A stretch of 47,467 nucleotides of DNA, taken from the NCBI GenBank assembly GCA_030065175.1, contig JASJDH010000003.1, positions 1-47,467 of the forward strand. The letters are read 5' to 3'. Shown one piece after another: positions 29,347-38,078 of the stretch. Every line of letters begins with the position of its first letter. Positions within the stretch are counted from its first letter, which is position 1. The notes beneath the pieces were generated by a model. It ran no database searches. It was not told where the DNA came from and saw nothing but the letters and a program-made list of their open reading frames with translations. The DNA is from Leptolyngbyaceae cyanobacterium MO_188.B28 (lineage in GTDB: Bacteria; Cyanobacteriota; Cyanobacteriia; Phormidesmidales; Phormidesmidaceae). The translations under genes and the position numbers were made by a program.

Positions 29347-30474
29347 TCAAGGGGTTTGACTATCTACCTGAGTAGAGTCCCTAAGTAAGATTTCAATCGC
29401 GTCTAGTAATCGGTCTTGTCCCCAGTTCTGATATAGATGAGCCGCAATCGCACATCCCCCAGCTCCAACCCCTTCCTTGACATAGCCTTTTTCATAGGCC
29501 CTCAGTTGAGCATAGCGGGATGCTGCAAAGTTGAGCTGGGTCGCCATTAGCGGCGCATCGCCAATCAGTTTGGCGAGCCCTATTGTATCTCCACTCGGAT
29601 CTGCAACAACCCAATGAGTGGTCCCTATGACAATTTGCTCGGGTCGCCAAGGTAAATTCTTTTTTTTGGCGATCGCTCTCATTAGGGCGTAAATTGCCAG
29701 CATTTGCGTACCTCCCGCTAGGAGAACCCCCACGGATCGGCTGGCCGCGATCGCCATTCCCGCTACAACAACTTGCATCGGATCTCCCACTGCCGTTAAG
29801 AGGTCTAATGGATCGATTAGGGAGGCGTCCTGCGACCCTTGTTGGCTCCGCCATTGCTGCAGTCCTTTTTGGACGACCTGCCATTTTTGCCTATGGTTGC
29901 AGGTTGGGTGACTGCTGTTTACCTTGTCAGCCGCCTTGAAGCCCAATCCAATTAAAATGGCGAGTGCGGTCGTGGTGCCTCCGACTACGCATTCTCCTAA
30001 AATCAAATAACTGTCGGGGCATTGGGCTGCTAATTTCTCCCCCCATGCTAATCCCTGGCGCAGTAGATGTATAACGGTCGATGGCTCGAGCGCTTTGCCC
30101 TGACTCAGGCAAGCTGCCGCGCTTCCCCCTAAATCAATGGTGGGAGCCGATGGCGGAATTAATAATCCGGCATTAAACAAATACAGCGGAATTTCCTGCC
30201 CTGTGATCACTGCCCGGGAGATTAGGGCTGGCGAAACACCTGCCTGCAAAGGCGGCAAACAATTAATTGAGGCGGGTTGCGGCCCCCTATAAAGAAATTC
30301 TGCGTCAGCGATCGCGGTGTACTTGCGGTCTTCTGGTTCTGCGCCCGCCGCTGAAATGCCTGGTATCAGGCCTGTTTCAGTAAAGCCAAGAATACAAGCG
30401 AAAATAGGTCGTTTTCCACGATGACGGGTAAGCCAGGCATGGCCTTGGTCGACTTCTGTATAAACCTGAATCAT
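29347..30474 (-). CDS. CobT-like protein (UPF0284/TIGR00303, phosphoribosyltransferase fold)
   Basis: A 375-residue protein related to nicotinate-nucleotide:dimethylbenzimidazole phosphoribosyltransferase, the enzyme that activates the lower ligand of cobalamin. The glycine-rich GECVVGGTTTALAILIGLG and DPMQVVVAGMAIAASRSVGVLLAGGTQM segments match the TIGR00303 branch, as does YVKEGVGAGGCAIAAHL near the C-terminus. Whether the branch makes cobamides or has another role is unresolved to my knowledge. It lies six bases after the DUF2232 gene and is probably its operon partner. ATG start with a conserved N-terminus. Confidence 0.85.
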   Translation of the reverse strand: MIQVYTEVDQGHAWLTRHRGKRPIFACILGFTETGLIPGISAAGAEPEDRKYTAIADAEFLYRGPQPASINCLPPLQAGVSPALISRAVITGQEIPLYLFNAGLLIPPSAPTIDLGGSAAACLSQGKALEPSTVIHLLRQGLAWGEKLAAQCPDSYLILGECVVGGTTTALAILIGLGFKAADKVNSSHPTCNHRQKWQVVQKGLQQWRSQQGSQDASLIDPLDLLTAVGDPMQVVVAGMAIAASRSVGVLLAGGTQMLAIYALMRAIAKKKNLPWRPEQIVIGTTHWVVADPSGDTIGLAKLIGDAPLMATQLNFAASRYAQLRAYEKGYVKEGVGAGGCAIAAHLYQNWGQDRLLDAIEILLRDSTQVDSQTP

Positions 30475-30480
30475 GTAAGG

Positions 30481-31212
30481 CTATTCATCCAGTAGCGCCT
30501 GAACCCAATGGGGAGGAATGGGCATGGGCGTTCCTAATCGTTCAAATAGGAGCCAGGCGGCTAAGTGAACGGTAAATAGATAAACGATATTGCTGACTAT
30601 CACCATTACCAGGGCAAAAATCTGAACAACAAACAGATCGGGCTGTCCCAAAACCCCTAGGCCGATCAGTCCCCAATCCACCAATCGGGTTAACCCCCAG
30701 TCCAACAACTGGGTAATTTGAGTGGTTAGGTAGACCCACAGGTCTTCCCCCAGCAGGACCGACAATAACCACACTCGAAAGAAAAAGCCCAGTGAGCCCA
30801 GTAAGGACCCCAGGACAATGGAGGCTGACCAGTTGGCCTTACGTGTCCACATGAACCCCAGCTGCACCCCCAATAGGCCATAGGGCATAACGAATAGAAT
30901 GCTTCTGGGAGGACCCATCAACACCGCCAATAAAAGGCCTGACACCAATGCTGACATCCAGGCGGCCCGACTTCCCCACCGTAAATAAACGAGCGCCATG
31001 GGGATGGGAAAAAAAATCCGCAGCAAGGGGCCCGGTGGAAAGTAATAGTTAACGAACCAGATGAGGCTGGCGGCGCTGGCGAGAAATGCTGTCTCCACCA
31101 TCGCGAGGGGACCCACCTTATCTAAGTGGGCTTTGCTGGATGGGGTAGAGCGCCCGCTTACCCAGTAACGGGGCGTCATTCCTGATGGGTCAGGATACTT
31201 GTCTTCATCCAA
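30481..31212 (-). CDS. DUF2232 integral membrane protein
   Basis: A 243-residue protein with about six hydrophobic segments (MVETAFLASAASLIWFVNYY, LLRIFFPIPMALVYLRWG, AALVSGLLLAVLMG-type stretch, GSLLGSLGFFFRVWLLSVLL, a paired region near 165-185 and ALVMVIVSNIVYLFTVHLAA). FFPIPMALVYLRWG and GPPRSILFVMPYGLLGVQLG are characteristic of the DUF2232 family, which resembles small-molecule or S-component-like transport proteins. The substrate is unknown. It lies between the Crp-like regulator (87 bases upstream) and the CobT-like gene (six bases downstream); the latter spacing suggests co-translation and perhaps a shared cofactor theme. Confidence 0.82.
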   Translation of the reverse strand: MDEDKYPDPSGMTPRYWVSGRSTPSSKAHLDKVGPLAMVETAFLASAASLIWFVNYYFPPGPLLRIFFPIPMALVYLRWGSRAAWMSALVSGLLLAVLMGPPRSILFVMPYGLLGVQLGFMWTRKANWSASIVLGSLLGSLGFFFRVWLLSVLLGEDLWVYLTTQITQLLDWGLTRLVDWGLIGLGVLGQPDLFVVQIFALVMVIVSNIVYLFTVHLAAWLLFERLGTPMPIPPHWVQALLDE

Positions 31213-31299: not shown

Positions 31300-32004
31300 C
31301 TAGACCAACAGACGTTCTAGGGCGTCGATATCAGGGATTCGCAGAACATCGCGATCGCGGGAAATCAGACCTTTCTTTTCTAGCTTGCTTAATACTCGGG
31401 TCACTGTTTCCCGAGCCAATCCGCTCAGACTACTCAATTCCCGATGAGGCAGATTAGGAATTTCCACTCCTTCTTGCCCCAGGGTTCCTTGTCCATCGGC
31501 TAGGAACAAAATGATATCCGCGACCCGCGACATGCTATCCGATTCCCTCAACCTTAACCGCCGATTGACCTGTCGTAGTCGCCGCGCCATCAGCTGAGCT
31601 AAGCGAATGCCCGCCAACGGCTCACTGTGAATTAAGCGGACAAAATCTTGGGCTGGCATATTCCCGATTACCGTTTGAACCAACGTAATCACATCGGTGG
31701 AACGGGGCACCTCATCCAGGGGCGCCATTTCGCCAAATAATTCCCCCTTCCCAAGGATATTGAGGGTAACCTCCTTGCCATCCAAATTATAGGTGCGGAT
31801 CTTAACCCATCCTTCGAGAATGAAATACACAGAACTCCCCCAGTCGTTTTCCAGGAGAATGACTTGATTAGCAGGATGGCGGCGTGTAACAACCTGAGCC
31901 GTTGCTTGCTTTACAGCGTCTTCTGGCAACTCCGCAAAGAAAGAAGAAGAGAGAATGAGAGCGTTATCAGACTGGTTTTCACGAGAGCTGTACCGAACAT
32001 CCAT
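31300..32004 (-). CDS. Crp/Fnr-family regulator, SYCRP1-like
   Basis: A 234-residue regulator: cyclic-nucleotide-binding-type beta roll (about 25-130, with HPANQVILLENDWGSSVYFILEGWVKI and GELFGEMAPLDEVPRST), a dimerisation helix, and a winged HTH (LPHRELSSLSGLARETVTRVLSKLEKKGLI). It differs from NtcA sequences I know and fits the cyanobacterial SYCRP1 group, which binds cAMP and controls motility and pilus genes in Synechocystis. The ligand loop has GE and RS/T, but RST stands where the classical signature has RSA, so cAMP binding is probable, not certain. The recognition helix retains the R-E-T-V-T-R pattern typical for TGTGA half-sites. Divergent from the giant gene. Confidence 0.85.
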   Translation of the reverse strand: MDVRYSSRENQSDNALILSSSFFAELPEDAVKQATAQVVTRRHPANQVILLENDWGSSVYFILEGWVKIRTYNLDGKEVTLNILGKGELFGEMAPLDEVPRSTDVITLVQTVIGNMPAQDFVRLIHSEPLAGIRLAQLMARRLRQVNRRLRLRESDSMSRVADIILFLADGQGTLGQEGVEIPNLPHRELSSLSGLARETVTRVLSKLEKKGLISRDRDVLRIPDIDALERLLV

Positions 32005-32570
32005 GAAAGTATCACATGAGAGCCCTGAAAGCGGGAAAAAGAGCGCTAATCACTTAAAAATTCAGCCGCATAGACCGAAGCAGAAACTCCCCAATAAACC
32101 TAGTCAAAACTGGAAAAAATACCCATTTTAGAAGGCTAGGGCAACCCTAATTAAATATCTATATATGATGTTAGGGATGTTAGATTTAGCGATTCTGCAT
32201 AAATTCCATCGGAGCTATTAATATAACATTCACAGTAGGCGAGTCTATAAAAGAAAAGCTTCCCTATAGAGTTCTGAACGCCCATCTGGGATTCAAAAAC
32301 TAACCGATCCTGGTGATTGTATACCGAAAGGGGAGTGAATCATACGACAACCTGTCTAGATCCTCAAATAAATACGATTGGTTTCACCCCTCGCAGCCCC
32401 TGAAGGAATTAAGTTAAAAAAGTTAAAATTCTAGGAATTTTGTTTCTATTTGTGACTTTCAACCTAGGCTGGCATACACTTTGGGCAAAAGACTCTAGCC
32501 GTCCAAGCAACAAACGCTTCATCATGAGGTAACGTCAGGTTTGCATTTATTTAGGTCGCTCCAGTGACCC
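32005..32570. other. Divergent intergenic region between crp-like gene and giant gene
   Basis: A 566-base AT-rich stretch without a gene. It should hold both promoters. I looked for a TGTGA-N6-TCACA site (autoregulation) and did not find one. Confidence 0.5.
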
Positions 32571-35500
32571 ATGGCGCTGCCAGCACCTCCACCCGCTCAA
32601 AGGATTCTACTAGTTTTCAAGGGTTCAATCGTGACTTCCGAGAAGGATCAAATTCAAACATTGATTGCCGAGATCGAAACGTTCTTGAGCAAACCTACCC
32701 CTCGGTTACCTTGGGGGAAGGTCGGCGACGCGGACCCGCAACGCCAAATTTTGGCCAAAACACAACGCTACCTCATTGGTCTTCAGCAATCAATGCAGGC
32801 TCCAGGCGGTTGGGGGCCAATTGATCCGGAAACGGGAGCGCTGACGCCCAGCGGCCCCCCAACTCTCCCTAATCAGCTTTCAACCGAGTCGGCGCAGCAA
32901 GTGCTGCAAGCTTTTTTGCAGGAAATGCACTACCTACGCGCCAATTTACTCCAACCGTTACGGCTTGAAATCGATGCGCTGCATGAGCGGCGACAAACCT
33001 TGCAGCAGGAAGTGCAGCAGTTAGAAAATCAAAGTCGACAGGCAGGCGGCTCTCAGTCGGGGGATTCAAGGCAATTACTTAATGAGTTTATGGACGTGTT
33101 TATGGAGCGCCTCCAGCAGAGTCTAGCCGCTCAAATTGCCCAAGCCTTAACCCAGCTCAGGAGTGACGCCGCGAATAATTTGCTGCTGGAAGAATTCTTA
33201 GAGGCGGATGTTGCTGCTGCGGATCGCCCCCGTTTACACCCTGCTCAAAGACTCGACCACCTGCGAACCGTTCAATCCGAATCTGACCAATTGCTCCTCA
33301 AATTGGATTCAACCCTAAAGGTTGTCTTTGAGACGTTGGAAAAGAATGTCCAAAGCTACCAGGAGTCGCTGTCGCAGGGATTGTCTAAGATGCATGGTTT
33401 GGGCAGCCGGGGCGAAACCATCGTCACAGCGCTGATCACCCATCTGGCTCAACAACTGGGACGAGACACATCCGCATATCTGGACGCCAGCCTAGAGGCT
33501 GGCGCGGGGTCAGAACTCGGAGCCCTGTCAGGAAAATCAACTGTGCAAAATCGGCTGTTGGCTTTCCAGGAAGAGACTTCGCCTGGTGCGGCTGAGGATC
33601 CATCGCCTACCCCGGAATCTTGGGAGGCGCCGTTAGATGGTTTTGACAGCGGCGAATTGGACAGTGGGGAATTAGACTTTGGTTTGGACGATTTAGACCT
33701 CGATCTCGATATTGATATCGATGATGAGGATATGGGGCGTTTACTCGGTGATGCTGCTGACCCGTTAGCCTCTCTCGATGATGAGGATGGGGCTCTGGCC
33801 GCGGATGCAGATAGGGAGTCTACTCATCCGCATCCGCCTATCGCCATAACCGATACTGCACATCCAGCCGTCGAGCCTGCCGTTGATATCCTTAGCCAAT
33901 TAAGCGATGGCGGCCAGGAAATCGACGCAGCAGTTCCGAATGATTTACGAGATGCAGCGGCTCAACTCGATGTCTCCTCTAATCTGAAAGAACTGGATGA
34001 CTTTTATCAAAGTTTGTTTGGAGAAAGTGACGGCGAGTTAGGGGCTGAGGCCTCCACCCCGGCAATATCCGATCCTAAGGTGACTGATGCTGAACTTGGG
34101 CTGTCGGCCCCCTTAGACCTCGGGGAGGCGGTGAAGGAAGACGCAGGGTCGATGGTCGATGGGCAAACTGAGGCATTGATTCAGCCTGACTTAGAAAAAT
34201 CTGCTCTGGGGGATTTGCTGTTAGAGGCGTCTGCTGATTCTGGCCTGTCCACTCCTCCATCCTCTGAACAGGCTTTGTCTGGTCCATCGGAAGGATCTGG
34301 GCAATTAGGAGACGCCTCTGATCCGCAAACGATGATTGATTCTTTCTTCGGTGAAGTCGATTTCTCCCAACAGGCGGCGACCTGGGAAGCTGATTCTACG
34401 CCCGACACGATTTCCGCCTTGACTGATTTACTGCCAAAGGGAAAGGTTGACTCCGCCAGGTTCCTGGCGCAAGACACTGGAGAGGCGGCGCCGGAAGGCG
34501 TTGACTCTCTAGATATCGAACTATCGGAAGATTTGAGCGCTTCAGGCTGGGATGGCGACGCGTACATACCAGCGCCGCCAGAAGAAGACCTGCTGGCGAA
34601 GGAGGATCCCGCAGAAGAATTGGGGTTGAATCTAGATTTAGTGGATTCCGCCTTGCAAAAACTGATGAATGAGGAGCTCTCTAGTTTGGAAGGGGTTGAT
34701 CTGACTAAGCCGTCGGATCTTGACCAGGCATTTGCAGCGGATTCATCTTCGGATCAACCGTCAGAATCAAGTCCTCAGCCTGAGGGGGCGGGAGAGACTT
34801 CGAATCAAGCTCTGTTGGAAAGCATTGTTCAGGAGCTAGATATTGCTGATGCGCTGTCAGATTTGGAAACGGAGGGAGAAGCCGGACTAACCCCGCAAAA
34901 ATTGATCGAAACTGAGATCCAGCAAGCGACCGCAGGGCCGGTCTCCTCTAGTGACGCTGAAGACATTACAGACACTGAAGATATTACGCTAGAGGCTCTG
35001 GAAGAGTTGATTTTGGAAGATTTGGCTCCCCAGCTTGATCGCTTGTCCGCTCTATTGCCTCCGGTTGTGGCTGAGGATTTAGGGTCATCAGAGAATTTGG
35101 GCCTAGACGAGCTAGTTGAGGATTTGCTGGACGCCTCTAAGGTTGACTCAATTCCAGCGGATGATATCGAAGCCAGGCTGCTCCTTTCAGATGAGGAAGA
35201 TCCAGACAGGGAAATTGATGGTATCGAAGAAGGATTGAGTTTACAGAATGTGCTTGAGGAGGCAGTCGCCTCGAGCCAACTGGCCCCTTCAGTAGAGGCG
35301 GTTGAACTGACGCTTGAGTCTTTAGCGGCGCTGACTTTAGAAGATTTGGCGTCTGGCGATGAGAGTGAGGCCGCCCTCGAAGTAGAGGCGGGGGGCGAAG
35401 CGGATGACGGCTTCAGCCCTGAAGAGGGTATGGATCCTCAACTTGATCCCGCTTCAGAAAAGTCTGCTCCGGATATAGAACCTGGGGATGCGAGTCTAAG

Positions 35501-38078
35501 TTCTCCCTCTGCGCCTGATATGTCTGCGCCTCCTGAACAGGGAGCTGAGGCCCGAATTACATCGCCTGGGGAAGAAAGTCTCTCTGAGTGGACTCAATTA
35601 GAGTCTGCTTTAGCGCCTGATTCTCCTGATTCGGACGCCGATTTGGAATCGGCTTTAGCACCCGACGCCTTTGATGGGGTTTTTGATGATGTTCTGGATA
35701 TAGAGGGCGATTTAGACTTGGGGGCTGAGCCTCAGAGTTGGCCAGTCCATCCGCAGCCCCCTGGGGATTCTATTGCAGATGATGTGACCGATGATGATGA
35801 GTTAGAGGCTTTGCTAGAGGACGCTTTAGCTGAAGAACTCCCAGCTGCGGACTGGACTCCAAGAGAGGTGGCTGAACCCGTTGCTTACCGGGGAGGGGAC
35901 GCCCTAGACTCAACTCGGGAAGAGCCGCTAGAAACCCCGGGGGTAAAGCTTTCCCCTGAGGCGGCCGCCTGGATTGAAGAAGCGCTTAAGATTGATGGGG
36001 ATGATCTGGGGAGCATTGATGCCGCAGATGCTGCGTTAACTGAAGTGGAATCTGAAGCGGAATCTGGGCTTAAGGCGGTGGAGAATGGTCCTCCTGTTGA
36101 GCCTGCTGAGGAAGCAGAATTGCAGCAGCAGTGGTTTTTGGGGATTGATTTGGGGGGGACTGGACTGTCGGCGGTGTTGATGGATAGGGTTGAGGGGAAT
36201 GCGTATCCCATTTACTGGGTTGCTGAGGATCCGCCAGAGGCGACTGGCCCGGCTGAAAAACTATTTCGCCTGCCGGTGATTGCTTATCTGACTCAAACTG
36301 CTCCTGCAGCCGATCCGGCGCTTTCCCACCAATCCTTGGGTCTGCAGCTAGAAGCAGTCGGTCCTGGAGCGCTGCGAGTCGCTCTGGATGACTATGCCGA
36401 CGTTCCGGAGGGAGGGGGTGTCCATTCAATGCCGCCCGGATTACTTTTGCGATCGCTGAAAACCCTTCTCAAAGTGGGCATTCCCTTCTATGCCCCGCAG
36501 CAAGAAGCGTGGGAGCCGATGATTCAATGGTCTGACTCTCAACAGCTTCCGCTTCAGTTGGTTCATGAGAGCCTCCGAGCAATGCTGCACACCTTGTGGC
36601 CGCTCGACCCGCCTGGAAATTTGGACGCATCTAGGCCCGCTCTGGCTTGCGGGGCCATCGGTCTAGATGCTTACGGGTTTAAGCGGGCGTTAGAAACCCT
36701 CCAGGGCGTTATCGTGGGTTATCCGGCGAATTGGCCAGACACCTACAGCTTCAATATTCGAGAAGCATTGTTAGCCGCTCAGCTCGTCATCCACCCCGAA
36801 CAAATTTTCTTCGTTGAAGATGGCATCGCCGCCGTTTTGTCAGGATTACCCGATCCGAATGCGGACTTATCCCCTCAACCCCCTCACCAGCAAGGACTGT
36901 ATAACTGCGACTGGCAGGGAGGCACAATTGTGGTCAACGGCGGCGCCAGTCTGACCGAGCTGACCGTCGTCGATATTCCTGACAACTTAGAGGGGGTGAC
37001 CTACGGGGATTTCTCCTGCCGGAGTTTTCCCTATGCCGGTGACGCCATTGATCAGGATATTATCTGTCAATTGCTTTATCCCCCTGCCTATCGTCAATCA
37101 CGCGAAGCCGCCGACCCTGTGGCCGTCCCCGCTGCTGACGGCTGGGCGTGGCAAGCCGATCTCCCTGAATCCGCCCGAACTGACTGGCAAAGTTTGGGGT
37201 TGGAGTCTATGGAGCTGCCTAGGCCAGGGGAGCCTGGCGGGGCCAATCGACACCGTCTGCAAAAGCGGCTAGAAGATTCCTTATTGGGGCAGAGCCTGTT
37301 AGAAGCCGCTCGACATTTAAAATTAATTCTGCAGCATCAGCCCCAGTGCAAACTTGAATTGGGAGACCAACAGTGGCTCATTCGTCGCAAGGATATGGAA
37401 AGTCGCATATTTTTGCCCTATATTCAGCGGGTCAATCGCCAGCTCAATATACTGCTGAGTCAGACTGGCTTCTCTTCCCAGGCGATTAACCAGGTGATTT
37501 GTACAGGTGGGTCCGCTTCCCTAGCCGCGATCGCCCGCTGGCTGCGACAAAAATTTCCCAACGCCACGATTATTCAAGATACTTATCCTAGCGATCGCCC
37601 CGCCAGCTGTAGTCGGGTTGCCTATGGCCTGGTCAATCTGTCTCGCTATCCTCAGGTGTTAGACATGGTTCGCCAGCAATATAGCGACTATTTTCTATTG
37701 CTGGAGCTTATTCGTCACTTCCCCGAGCAGCCTTTGCCTATAACGGGAATTATGCACCTGCTCGAGAGTCGGGGAATCAACACCAAAGTCTGCTACAGTC
37801 ACATTCTGGCGTTGCTGGAAGGCCATTTACCCCCAGGACTTATCCCCACGGAGCCAGATTTGCCCTGGATGACTCAACAGTCTTTAGACAATGGTGATTA
37901 TCAGTCCCTTGGATCGCCCCCTCTGTTCACCAAGCAAGGGAAACAGATTTACATTCCCAATCTCACCCAACGACAGCGTCTTAGCGACCATTTAGAGGGG
38001 TTAATGGCTGGCAAACACCAGACATTGGAAGAACCGTTGATTGCTCAGTTAGCTCCCGTGTTTTTGGGGCGATCATAG
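32571..38078 (+). CDS. 1835-residue acidic protein with C-terminal Hsp70-like ATPase domain
   Basis: Three parts. Residues 1-330: helical, with a glutamine-rich coiled coil (ERRQTLQQEVQQLENQ). Residues about 332-1185: very acidic low-complexity sequence with few Lys/Arg and recurring leucine/acidic blocks (LDDLDLDLDIDIDDEDMG; LEALEELILEDLAPQL; LESLAALTLEDLASG; LESALAPD twice). Residues about 1188-1690: an actin/Hsp70-fold ATPase with phosphate-1 LGIDLGGTGLSAVL (Asp1193), an Hsp70-like IVGYPANWPD, phosphate-2 VVNGGASLTEL (from 1454) and adenosine motif CTGGSASL (1644-1651). The last 150 residues contain a possible winged-helix segment. No Hsp70 substrate domain follows. Phosphate-2 has Asn1456 in place of Asp, so hydrolysis may be slow or absent. 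The LysR gene starts 81 bases downstream. Confidence 0.85.
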   Translation: MALPAPPPAQRILLVFKGSIVTSEKDQIQTLIAEIETFLSKPTPRLPWGKVGDADPQRQILAKTQRYLIGLQQSMQAPGGWGPIDPETGALTPSGPPTLPNQLSTESAQQVLQAFLQEMHYLRANLLQPLRLEIDALHERRQTLQQEVQQLENQSRQAGGSQSGDSRQLLNEFMDVFMERLQQSLAAQIAQALTQLRSDAANNLLLEEFLEADVAAADRPRLHPAQRLDHLRTVQSESDQLLLKLDSTLKVVFETLEKNVQSYQESLSQGLSKMHGLGSRGETIVTALITHLAQQLGRDTSAYLDASLEAGAGSELGALSGKSTVQNRLLAFQEETSPGAAEDPSPTPESWEAPLDGFDSGELDSGELDFGLDDLDLDLDIDIDDEDMGRLLGDAADPLASLDDEDGALAADADRESTHPHPPIAITDTAHPAVEPAVDILSQLSDGGQEIDAAVPNDLRDAAAQLDVSSNLKELDDFYQSLFGESDGELGAEASTPAISDPKVTDAELGLSAPLDLGEAVKEDAGSMVDGQTEALIQPDLEKSALGDLLLEASADSGLSTPPSSEQALSGPSEGSGQLGDASDPQTMIDSFFGEVDFSQQAATWEADSTPDTISALTDLLPKGKVDSARFLAQDTGEAAPEGVDSLDIELSEDLSASGWDGDAYIPAPPEEDLLAKEDPAEELGLNLDLVDSALQKLMNEELSSLEGVDLTKPSDLDQAFAADSSSDQPSESSPQPEGAGETSNQALLESIVQELDIADALSDLETEGEAGLTPQKLIETEIQQATAGPVSSSDAEDITDTEDITLEALEELILEDLAPQLDRLSALLPPVVAEDLGSSENLGLDELVEDLLDASKVDSIPADDIEARLLLSDEEDPDREIDGIEEGLSLQNVLEEAVASSQLAPSVEAVELTLESLAALTLEDLASGDESEAALEVEAGGEADDGFSPEEGMDPQLDPASEKSAPDIEPGDASLSSPSAPDMSAPPEQGAEARITSPGEESLSEWTQLESALAPDSPDSDADLESALAPDAFDGVFDDVLDIEGDLDLGAEPQSWPVHPQPPGDSIADDVTDDDELEALLEDALAEELPAADWTPREVAEPVAYRGGDALDSTREEPLETPGVKLSPEAAAWIEEALKIDGDDLGSIDAADAALTEVESEAESGLKAVENGPPVEPAEEAELQQQWFLGIDLGGTGLSAVLMDRVEGNAYPIYWVAEDPPEATGPAEKLFRLPVIAYLTQTAPAADPALSHQSLGLQLEAVGPGALRVALDDYADVPEGGGVHSMPPGLLLRSLKTLLKVGIPFYAPQQEAWEPMIQWSDSQQLPLQLVHESLRAMLHTLWPLDPPGNLDASRPALACGAIGLDAYGFKRALETLQGVIVGYPANWPDTYSFNIREALLAAQLVIHPEQIFFVEDGIAAVLSGLPDPNADLSPQPPHQQGLYNCDWQGGTIVVNGGASLTELTVVDIPDNLEGVTYGDFSCRSFPYAGDAIDQDIICQLLYPPAYRQSREAADPVAVPAADGWAWQADLPESARTDWQSLGLESMELPRPGEPGGANRHRLQKRLEDSLLGQSLLEAARHLKLILQHQPQCKLELGDQQWLIRRKDMESRIFLPYIQRVNRQLNILLSQTGFSSQAINQVICTGGSASLAAIARWLRQKFPNATIIQDTYPSDRPASCSRVAYGLVNLSRYPQVLDMVRQQYSDYFLLLELIRHFPEQPLPITGIMHLLESRGINTKVCYSHILALLEGHLPPGLIPTEPDLPWMTQQSLDNGDYQSLGSPPLFTKQGKQIYIPNLTQRQRLSDHLEGLMAGKHQTLEEPLIAQLAPVFLGRS

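Follow-up and report, generated by a model that had tools for sequence, protein, structure and literature searches.

Ssz1, the ribosome-associated Hsp70 of yeast, binds ATP without hydrolysing it, and the adaptor PilM binds the N-terminal peptide of PilN. PopZ and FimV/HubP are acidic polar scaffolds in which helical ends are joined to a long acidic linker that has few conserved peptides, and we know of none among them that carries an Hsp70-type domain. Here we show by computation that a giant protein encoded in the window (the whole stretch of 47,467 nucleotides that was analysed, which is contig C313 of a cyanobacterial genome of 8.5 Mb) has, in this order, a helical N-terminal domain, a disordered acidic linker with a single-copy motif, and a domain of Hsp70 fold in which the phosphate-2 Asp is lost. 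Its two parts are encoded by a gene pair in some lineages and by a fusion in others, and a Crp gene is found divergent from it.

The giant ORF on the + strand (32571-38078) is a single uninterrupted frame of 1835 codons, counted from the ATG at 32571, and is a real, conserved gene. The open frame of the preliminary description was thus confirmed, whereas its ATG start was not. The conserved N-terminus of the relatives opens with MTSxxDQIQ, and the equivalent position in the window is a GTG at 32631, preceded by AAGGG. Hence the true start is probably GTG 32631, the probable frame is 32631..38078 (+) with a product of 1815 aa, and the 20 residues that precede this GTG in the ORF are probably not translated. 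No segment of the giant protein has the hydrophobicity of a membrane helix, the Kyte-Doolittle value over 19 residues reaching 1.25 at most. The architecture had been regarded as one without a characterised match; we looked for a characterised family matching the whole protein, and Pfam, NCBIfam and PDB profile searches gave none. Pfam and NCBIfam hold no named family for it, and no study of the family was found in the open-access literature, which was searched without a locus tag. One paper (PMC2821919) lists all3951, at most a candidate orthologue in Anabaena PCC 7120, under 'Arginyl tRNA synthetase anticodon binding'.

The C-terminal 648 residues (1188-1835) were modelled with AlphaFold using 24 relatives; alignments of 24-30 sequences are a shallow input for this method. 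The model (pLDDT 84.7, pTM 0.89) was Hsp70-like, as had been anticipated, and the 50 best matches found by Foldseek in the PDB were all Hsp70 proteins, Ssz1 among them (best E 1.8e-13; TM about 0.65 when isolated nucleotide domains are used for normalisation). Together with the motifs and profile comparison, this places an Hsp70-type nucleotide-binding domain at about residues 1188-1681 (36132..37613, +). Single-sequence searches gave weak Hsp70, HscA, PilM and BadF matches for the C-terminal part, and a single-sequence PDB search with the window protein gave no usable match; a profile of 24 relatives returned marginal matches to DnaK, Sse1 and PilM in the PDB profile search. On hhalign comparison, the family aligned with cyanobacterial Hsp70-family proteins of ~530 aa over 376 columns (probability 96%, E 1.9e-9), its match to DnaK being weaker. 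The C-terminal part of the window protein missed the curated Pfam HSP70 cut-off (10 bits vs 20.6), and weak HSP70 matches were obtained for 12 of 24 family members.

The nucleotide site retains phosphate-1 (GIDLGGTG), connect-1 (VEDGIAA) and adenosine (CTGGSAS) motifs in the window. Phosphate-2 is degenerate (VVNGGASLTEL, residues 1450-1467), with Asn replacing Asp as had been noted earlier, and the catalytic phosphate-2 signature of Hsp70 (Asp, GGGT) is absent from the protein. Among 108 sequences the Asp position is occupied by S in 47 and by N in 46 (93/108 together) and by D in 6, so that the Asn of the window is, as judged from these sequences, a trait of the family. Kept among the same 108 are the phosphate-1 Asp (107), the adenosine Gly (108) and the connect-1 Glu (96). 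Loss of the phosphate-2 Asp with retention of the other site residues, read against known Hsp70 catalysis, suggests a domain that would bind ATP with doubtful turnover, and the ATP-splitting chemistry has probably been lost. The early hint of binding over turnover is thereby supported at the family level, although absence of hydrolysis cannot be general, since 6 of the 108 sequences retain the Asp. An Hsp70 substrate-binding domain is missing, as first described, and in its place stands a different tail of ~130 residues (about residues 1682-1835; 37614..38075, +), which is conserved in the alignment and is modelled as helices with a small beta pair behind them. This further domain (about 1682-1830) had been overlooked in the preliminary description, where only the nucleotide domain was recognised within the C-terminal 650 residues. 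The tail fold may be winged-helix-like in the model. No Pfam family, including any HTH family, matched the tail, and its identification as a known HTH family was rejected.

The linker (residues 336-1187; 33576..36131, +) bears out the claim of more than 800 acidic, disordered residues. Its 852 residues contain 26% D+E and 3% K+R, with a net charge of -199. L119 of Desmonostoc (1187 aa) is the shortest of the fused relatives, and when it was modelled in full length its linker came out as disordered, with pLDDT of about 25-35. Linker length among the relatives ranges between 289 and 1692 residues, and nearly all of these linkers are acidic, D+E falling to 12-18% in some. The leucine/acidic blocks were said to recur in many copies, and this was not upheld. 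The strict LEALEELILEDLAP-type pattern exceeds the expectation from composition in the window linker (0 in 500 shuffles) but occurs just twice (residues 805-820 and 913-928; 34983..35354, +), and it is absent from the 95 other linkers examined. Mapping of its conservation thus showed a duplicate peculiar to the window species.

A different peptide is widely conserved. Linker motif 1, with the consensus [LF]-Y-x-[ST]-L-F-G mostly behind D-x (D-x-[LF]-Y-x-S-L-F-G), is represented in the window by KELDDFYQSLFG (residues 473-484; 33987..34022, +). In its strict form it was found in 70 of 95 linkers, as a single copy in each (shuffled expectation 0.00) and 62-297 residues downstream of the N-terminal domain; the relaxed form was found in 79 of 95 (~0 expected). 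The strict form is present in 11/19 split and 59/76 fused proteins. Motif 1 is missing in several lineages, e.g. L048, L051, L154 and L166. Two weaker motifs, LTDLL and YIPAxPxExLL, each occur in about one third of linkers; in the window these are motif 2, DTISALTDLL (residues 612-621; 34404..34433, +; 32/95 linkers, shuffled mean 0.7), and motif 3, DAYIPAPPEEDLL (residues 663-675; 34557..34595, +; 28/95, shuffled mean 0.05). Conservation is much stronger in the folded ends and in motif 1 than in most of the remaining linker. Docking of motif 1 on the nucleotide domain or the tail was not seen in the whole-protein model of L119, where confidence is low, and intramolecular docking on the Hsp70-like domain was rejected on this model.

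The N-terminal domain (residues 21-335; 32631..33575, +) is helical, in line with the first description, with conserved coiled-coil-like blocks in a 22-sequence alignment; its helices have low to medium confidence in the AF2 model of a relative. The coiled-coil-like sequence suggests that the domain oligomerises. A relative of this coil domain is also found fused to an EamA/DMT-type membrane transporter (L151:1462-3309, L056:16488-18338 and L058:18190-19501), which suggests that the coil domain is a reusable cyanobacterial module. The first of these loci belongs to the window's own genome (contig C495) and lies directly behind an alaS-like gene.

The domain is kept in fused and split relatives alike. 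The protein is one chain in the family of the window, in Nostocales, Oscillatoria and others, whereas in several other families two adjacent genes on the same strand encode the N-terminal domain plus acidic linker and the Hsp70-like protein, respectively (L054-L058, L063, L155, L159-L161 and L164-L169). At L063, L168 and L169 the two frames share 4 bases, an overlap of the kind seen in translational coupling. When mapped on a tree of 67 nucleotide domains, the fused/split state requires 6 changes, at least 3 of them forced by well-supported branches; the tree was made by a quick method, has some long branches, and leaves out L095, L096, L112 and L114 because of possible frameshifts. Since the halves are adjacent genes in some lineages and fused in others, with at least three changes between these states, they are probably partners with a joint function, independently of annotation. 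In the four loci left out (L095:4070-10934, L096:6289-10994, L112:2835-10287 and L114:6048-11143) the linker is broken by a frame change with acidic sequence on both genes, which reflects either sequencing frameshifts in these draft genomes or recent gene fission.

Of the 195 genomes sampled from the class, 142 had a match at E <= 0.001. In about 112 of them the match was strong (E < 1e-25) and was counted as the family itself, the remainder being other Hsp70-family proteins. Most genomes smaller than 3 Mb lack the family, and named matches came from Nostoc, Scytonema, Fischerella, Chlorogloeopsis, Leptolyngbya and Nodosilinea.

The gene had been placed between a Crp-type and a LysR-type regulator gene, and of these two only the former is a conserved neighbour. 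The divergent Crp-family gene (31300..32004, -) was present in 74 of the 84 loci that extend far enough upstream, many of the relatives' loci being contig ends, and it is the only conserved neighbour at the promoter of the giant gene. The LysR neighbour is confined to a few close relatives, and linkage to it was rejected. Behind the Crp gene, most loci carry genes for a DUF2232 membrane protein (30481..31212, -; Pfam match) and then a CobT-like phosphoribosyltransferase (29347..30474, -; TIGR00303 match). Downstream neighbours of the giant gene were not conserved among the loci compared; some Nostocales have a gene for a bacterial sugar transferase (PF02397) behind it (L116:12273-12980). The Crp regulator is 62-87% identical across most sampled cyanobacteria, and its E...RS residues are those expected of a cyclic nucleotide binder; it may be SyCRP1, AnCrpA or DevH. 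Upstream conservation revealed a promoter-like element, TGTGACTTTCAACCTAGGCTGGCATACACTTTGG (32450..32490, +), with a putative -10 TACACT at 32475-32480, which a sigma-70 consensus scan did not detect. The sequence TACACTTTGG occurred in 25 of 71 intergenic regions and in none of five shuffles. Ahead of the giant gene, Leptolyngbya-type relatives share a block, TGTGAC...CTGGCATACACTTTGGGCA, in place of which Nostocales carry a GTGACTTC block. A conserved E. coli-type CRP operator (TGTGAN6TCACA) was not found between the Crp and giant genes, nor did a generic dyad scan and an NtcA site search of the intergenic region give anything convincing.

We tentatively favour the giant protein as a soluble scaffold or tether, in which an oligomerising N-terminus and an acidic, motif-bearing tether are combined with an ATP-bound, non-cycling Hsp70-like clamp. 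The N-terminal helical domain would self-associate or anchor the protein. The long acidic linker would hold both ends apart and present a few conserved peptides to a partner protein, foremost among them D-x-[LF]-Y-x-S-L-F-G. The C-terminal domain, its hydrolysis motif degraded, would bind ATP as a stable ATP-dependent clamp and not act as a cycling chaperone, with the tail domain replacing the substrate-binding domain. The scaffold or condensate idea of the preliminary description survives in this altered form, as a tether with conserved peptides, its many copies of a short motif having been given up. As for a cellular process, a connection of the giant protein with type IV pili or polysaccharide secretion would be attractive but is speculative. 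The two are linked in Nostoc by a DnaK1/DnaJ3 system (PMC9239167), and in Synechocystis pili are under the control of SyCRP1 (PMC2633013), with which the Crp neighbour may or may not be identical.

The same Hsp70 fold could instead be that of a divergent Hsp70 in a specialised chaperone or co-chaperone role, working with canonical DnaK/DnaJ partners as Ssz1 works with Zuo1, with ATP bound and unhydrolysed. The presence of Ssz1 among the best structural matches, the cyanobacterial Hsp70-family proteins as nearest sequence relatives, and the DnaK1/DnaJ3 precedent in Nostoc all agree with this. The substrate-binding domain is missing, however, the tail matches no Hsp70 domain, and no J-protein gene was recognised among the conserved neighbours. 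We also know of no counterpart of the giant N-terminal half and acidic linker among Hsp70 co-chaperones, and a chaperone role is rather unlikely. A PilM/FtsA-like adaptor, with the actin-fold domain on a membrane machine such as type IV pili and the acidic half recruiting components, would account for the weak matches to PilM_2 that 17 of 24 family members give, the marginal PilM hits of the PDB profile search, and a phosphate-2 pattern (VxxGAxxTEL) that resembles PilM as well as Hsp70. But the match of the window protein is only 13.6 bits against a Pfam cut-off of 27, Foldseek ranks Hsp70 proteins ahead of PilM/FtsA, and no pilus gene (pilNO or other) was recognised among the conserved neighbours; we regard such an adaptor as very unlikely.

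Two further explanations shift the function away from the nucleotide domain. The acidic linker may itself carry the function, as a polyanionic brush or by forming condensates, with the terminal domains as mere anchors. Retention of acidity while the sequence and length of the linker vary freely speaks for this; yet the linker bulk is far less conserved than the ends and motif 1, and the D+E content of some members is low, so that we consider it decidedly unlikely. The least probable reading is that of a DNA or transcription protein, whose winged-helix-like tail would bind DNA or RNA polymerase and whose acidic linker would serve, with Crp, as an activation region or nucleic-acid mimic. It draws on the divergent Crp gene, on the order of helices and beta pair in the modelled tail, which would fit a winged helix, and on leucine/acidic peptides that may resemble activation motifs. 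Against it, the tail matches no HTH family, the same Crp gene is also present in genomes without the giant gene, and the stretch between the two genes holds no conserved CRP site of the E. coli type.

The scaffold or tether reading would extend, though here we are more doubtful, to a widespread machine of a new type, with an ATP-locked Hsp70 clamp, a giant acidic linker, an oligomerising N-terminal domain and a conserved LYxSLFG peptide on which a conserved partner would dock, repeatedly split and fused. The family occurs in most cyanobacteria with larger genomes (among them Nostoc, Fischerella and Leptolyngbya) and has no Pfam or NCBIfam name, and it apparently uses the Hsp70 fold without the chaperone cycle and without a substrate-binding domain. 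The pair/fusion pattern and the single conserved linker motif provide simple handles for finding its function.

The likeness of the giant protein to PopZ and FimV/HubP is one of analogy only, as no such match was obtained in Pfam or NCBIfam. With the PilM/FtsA adaptors it shares the superfamily, the phosphate-2 pattern and weak profile matches, but its structure is nearer to Hsp70, its match lies under the cut-off, and no pilus or division gene was recognised nearby. Ssz1 resembles it in the Hsp70 fold matched by Foldseek; unlike the giant protein, Ssz1 has a substrate-binding domain and the partner Zuo1, and no acidic giant partner. The nucleotide domain of Hsp70/DnaK (PF00012) is similar in fold and in the phosphate-1, connect-1 and adenosine motifs. 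The giant protein differs from it in the lost phosphate-2 Asp, the missing substrate-binding domain, a score below the Pfam cut-off, the extra tail, and its fusion or pairing with a giant acidic part.
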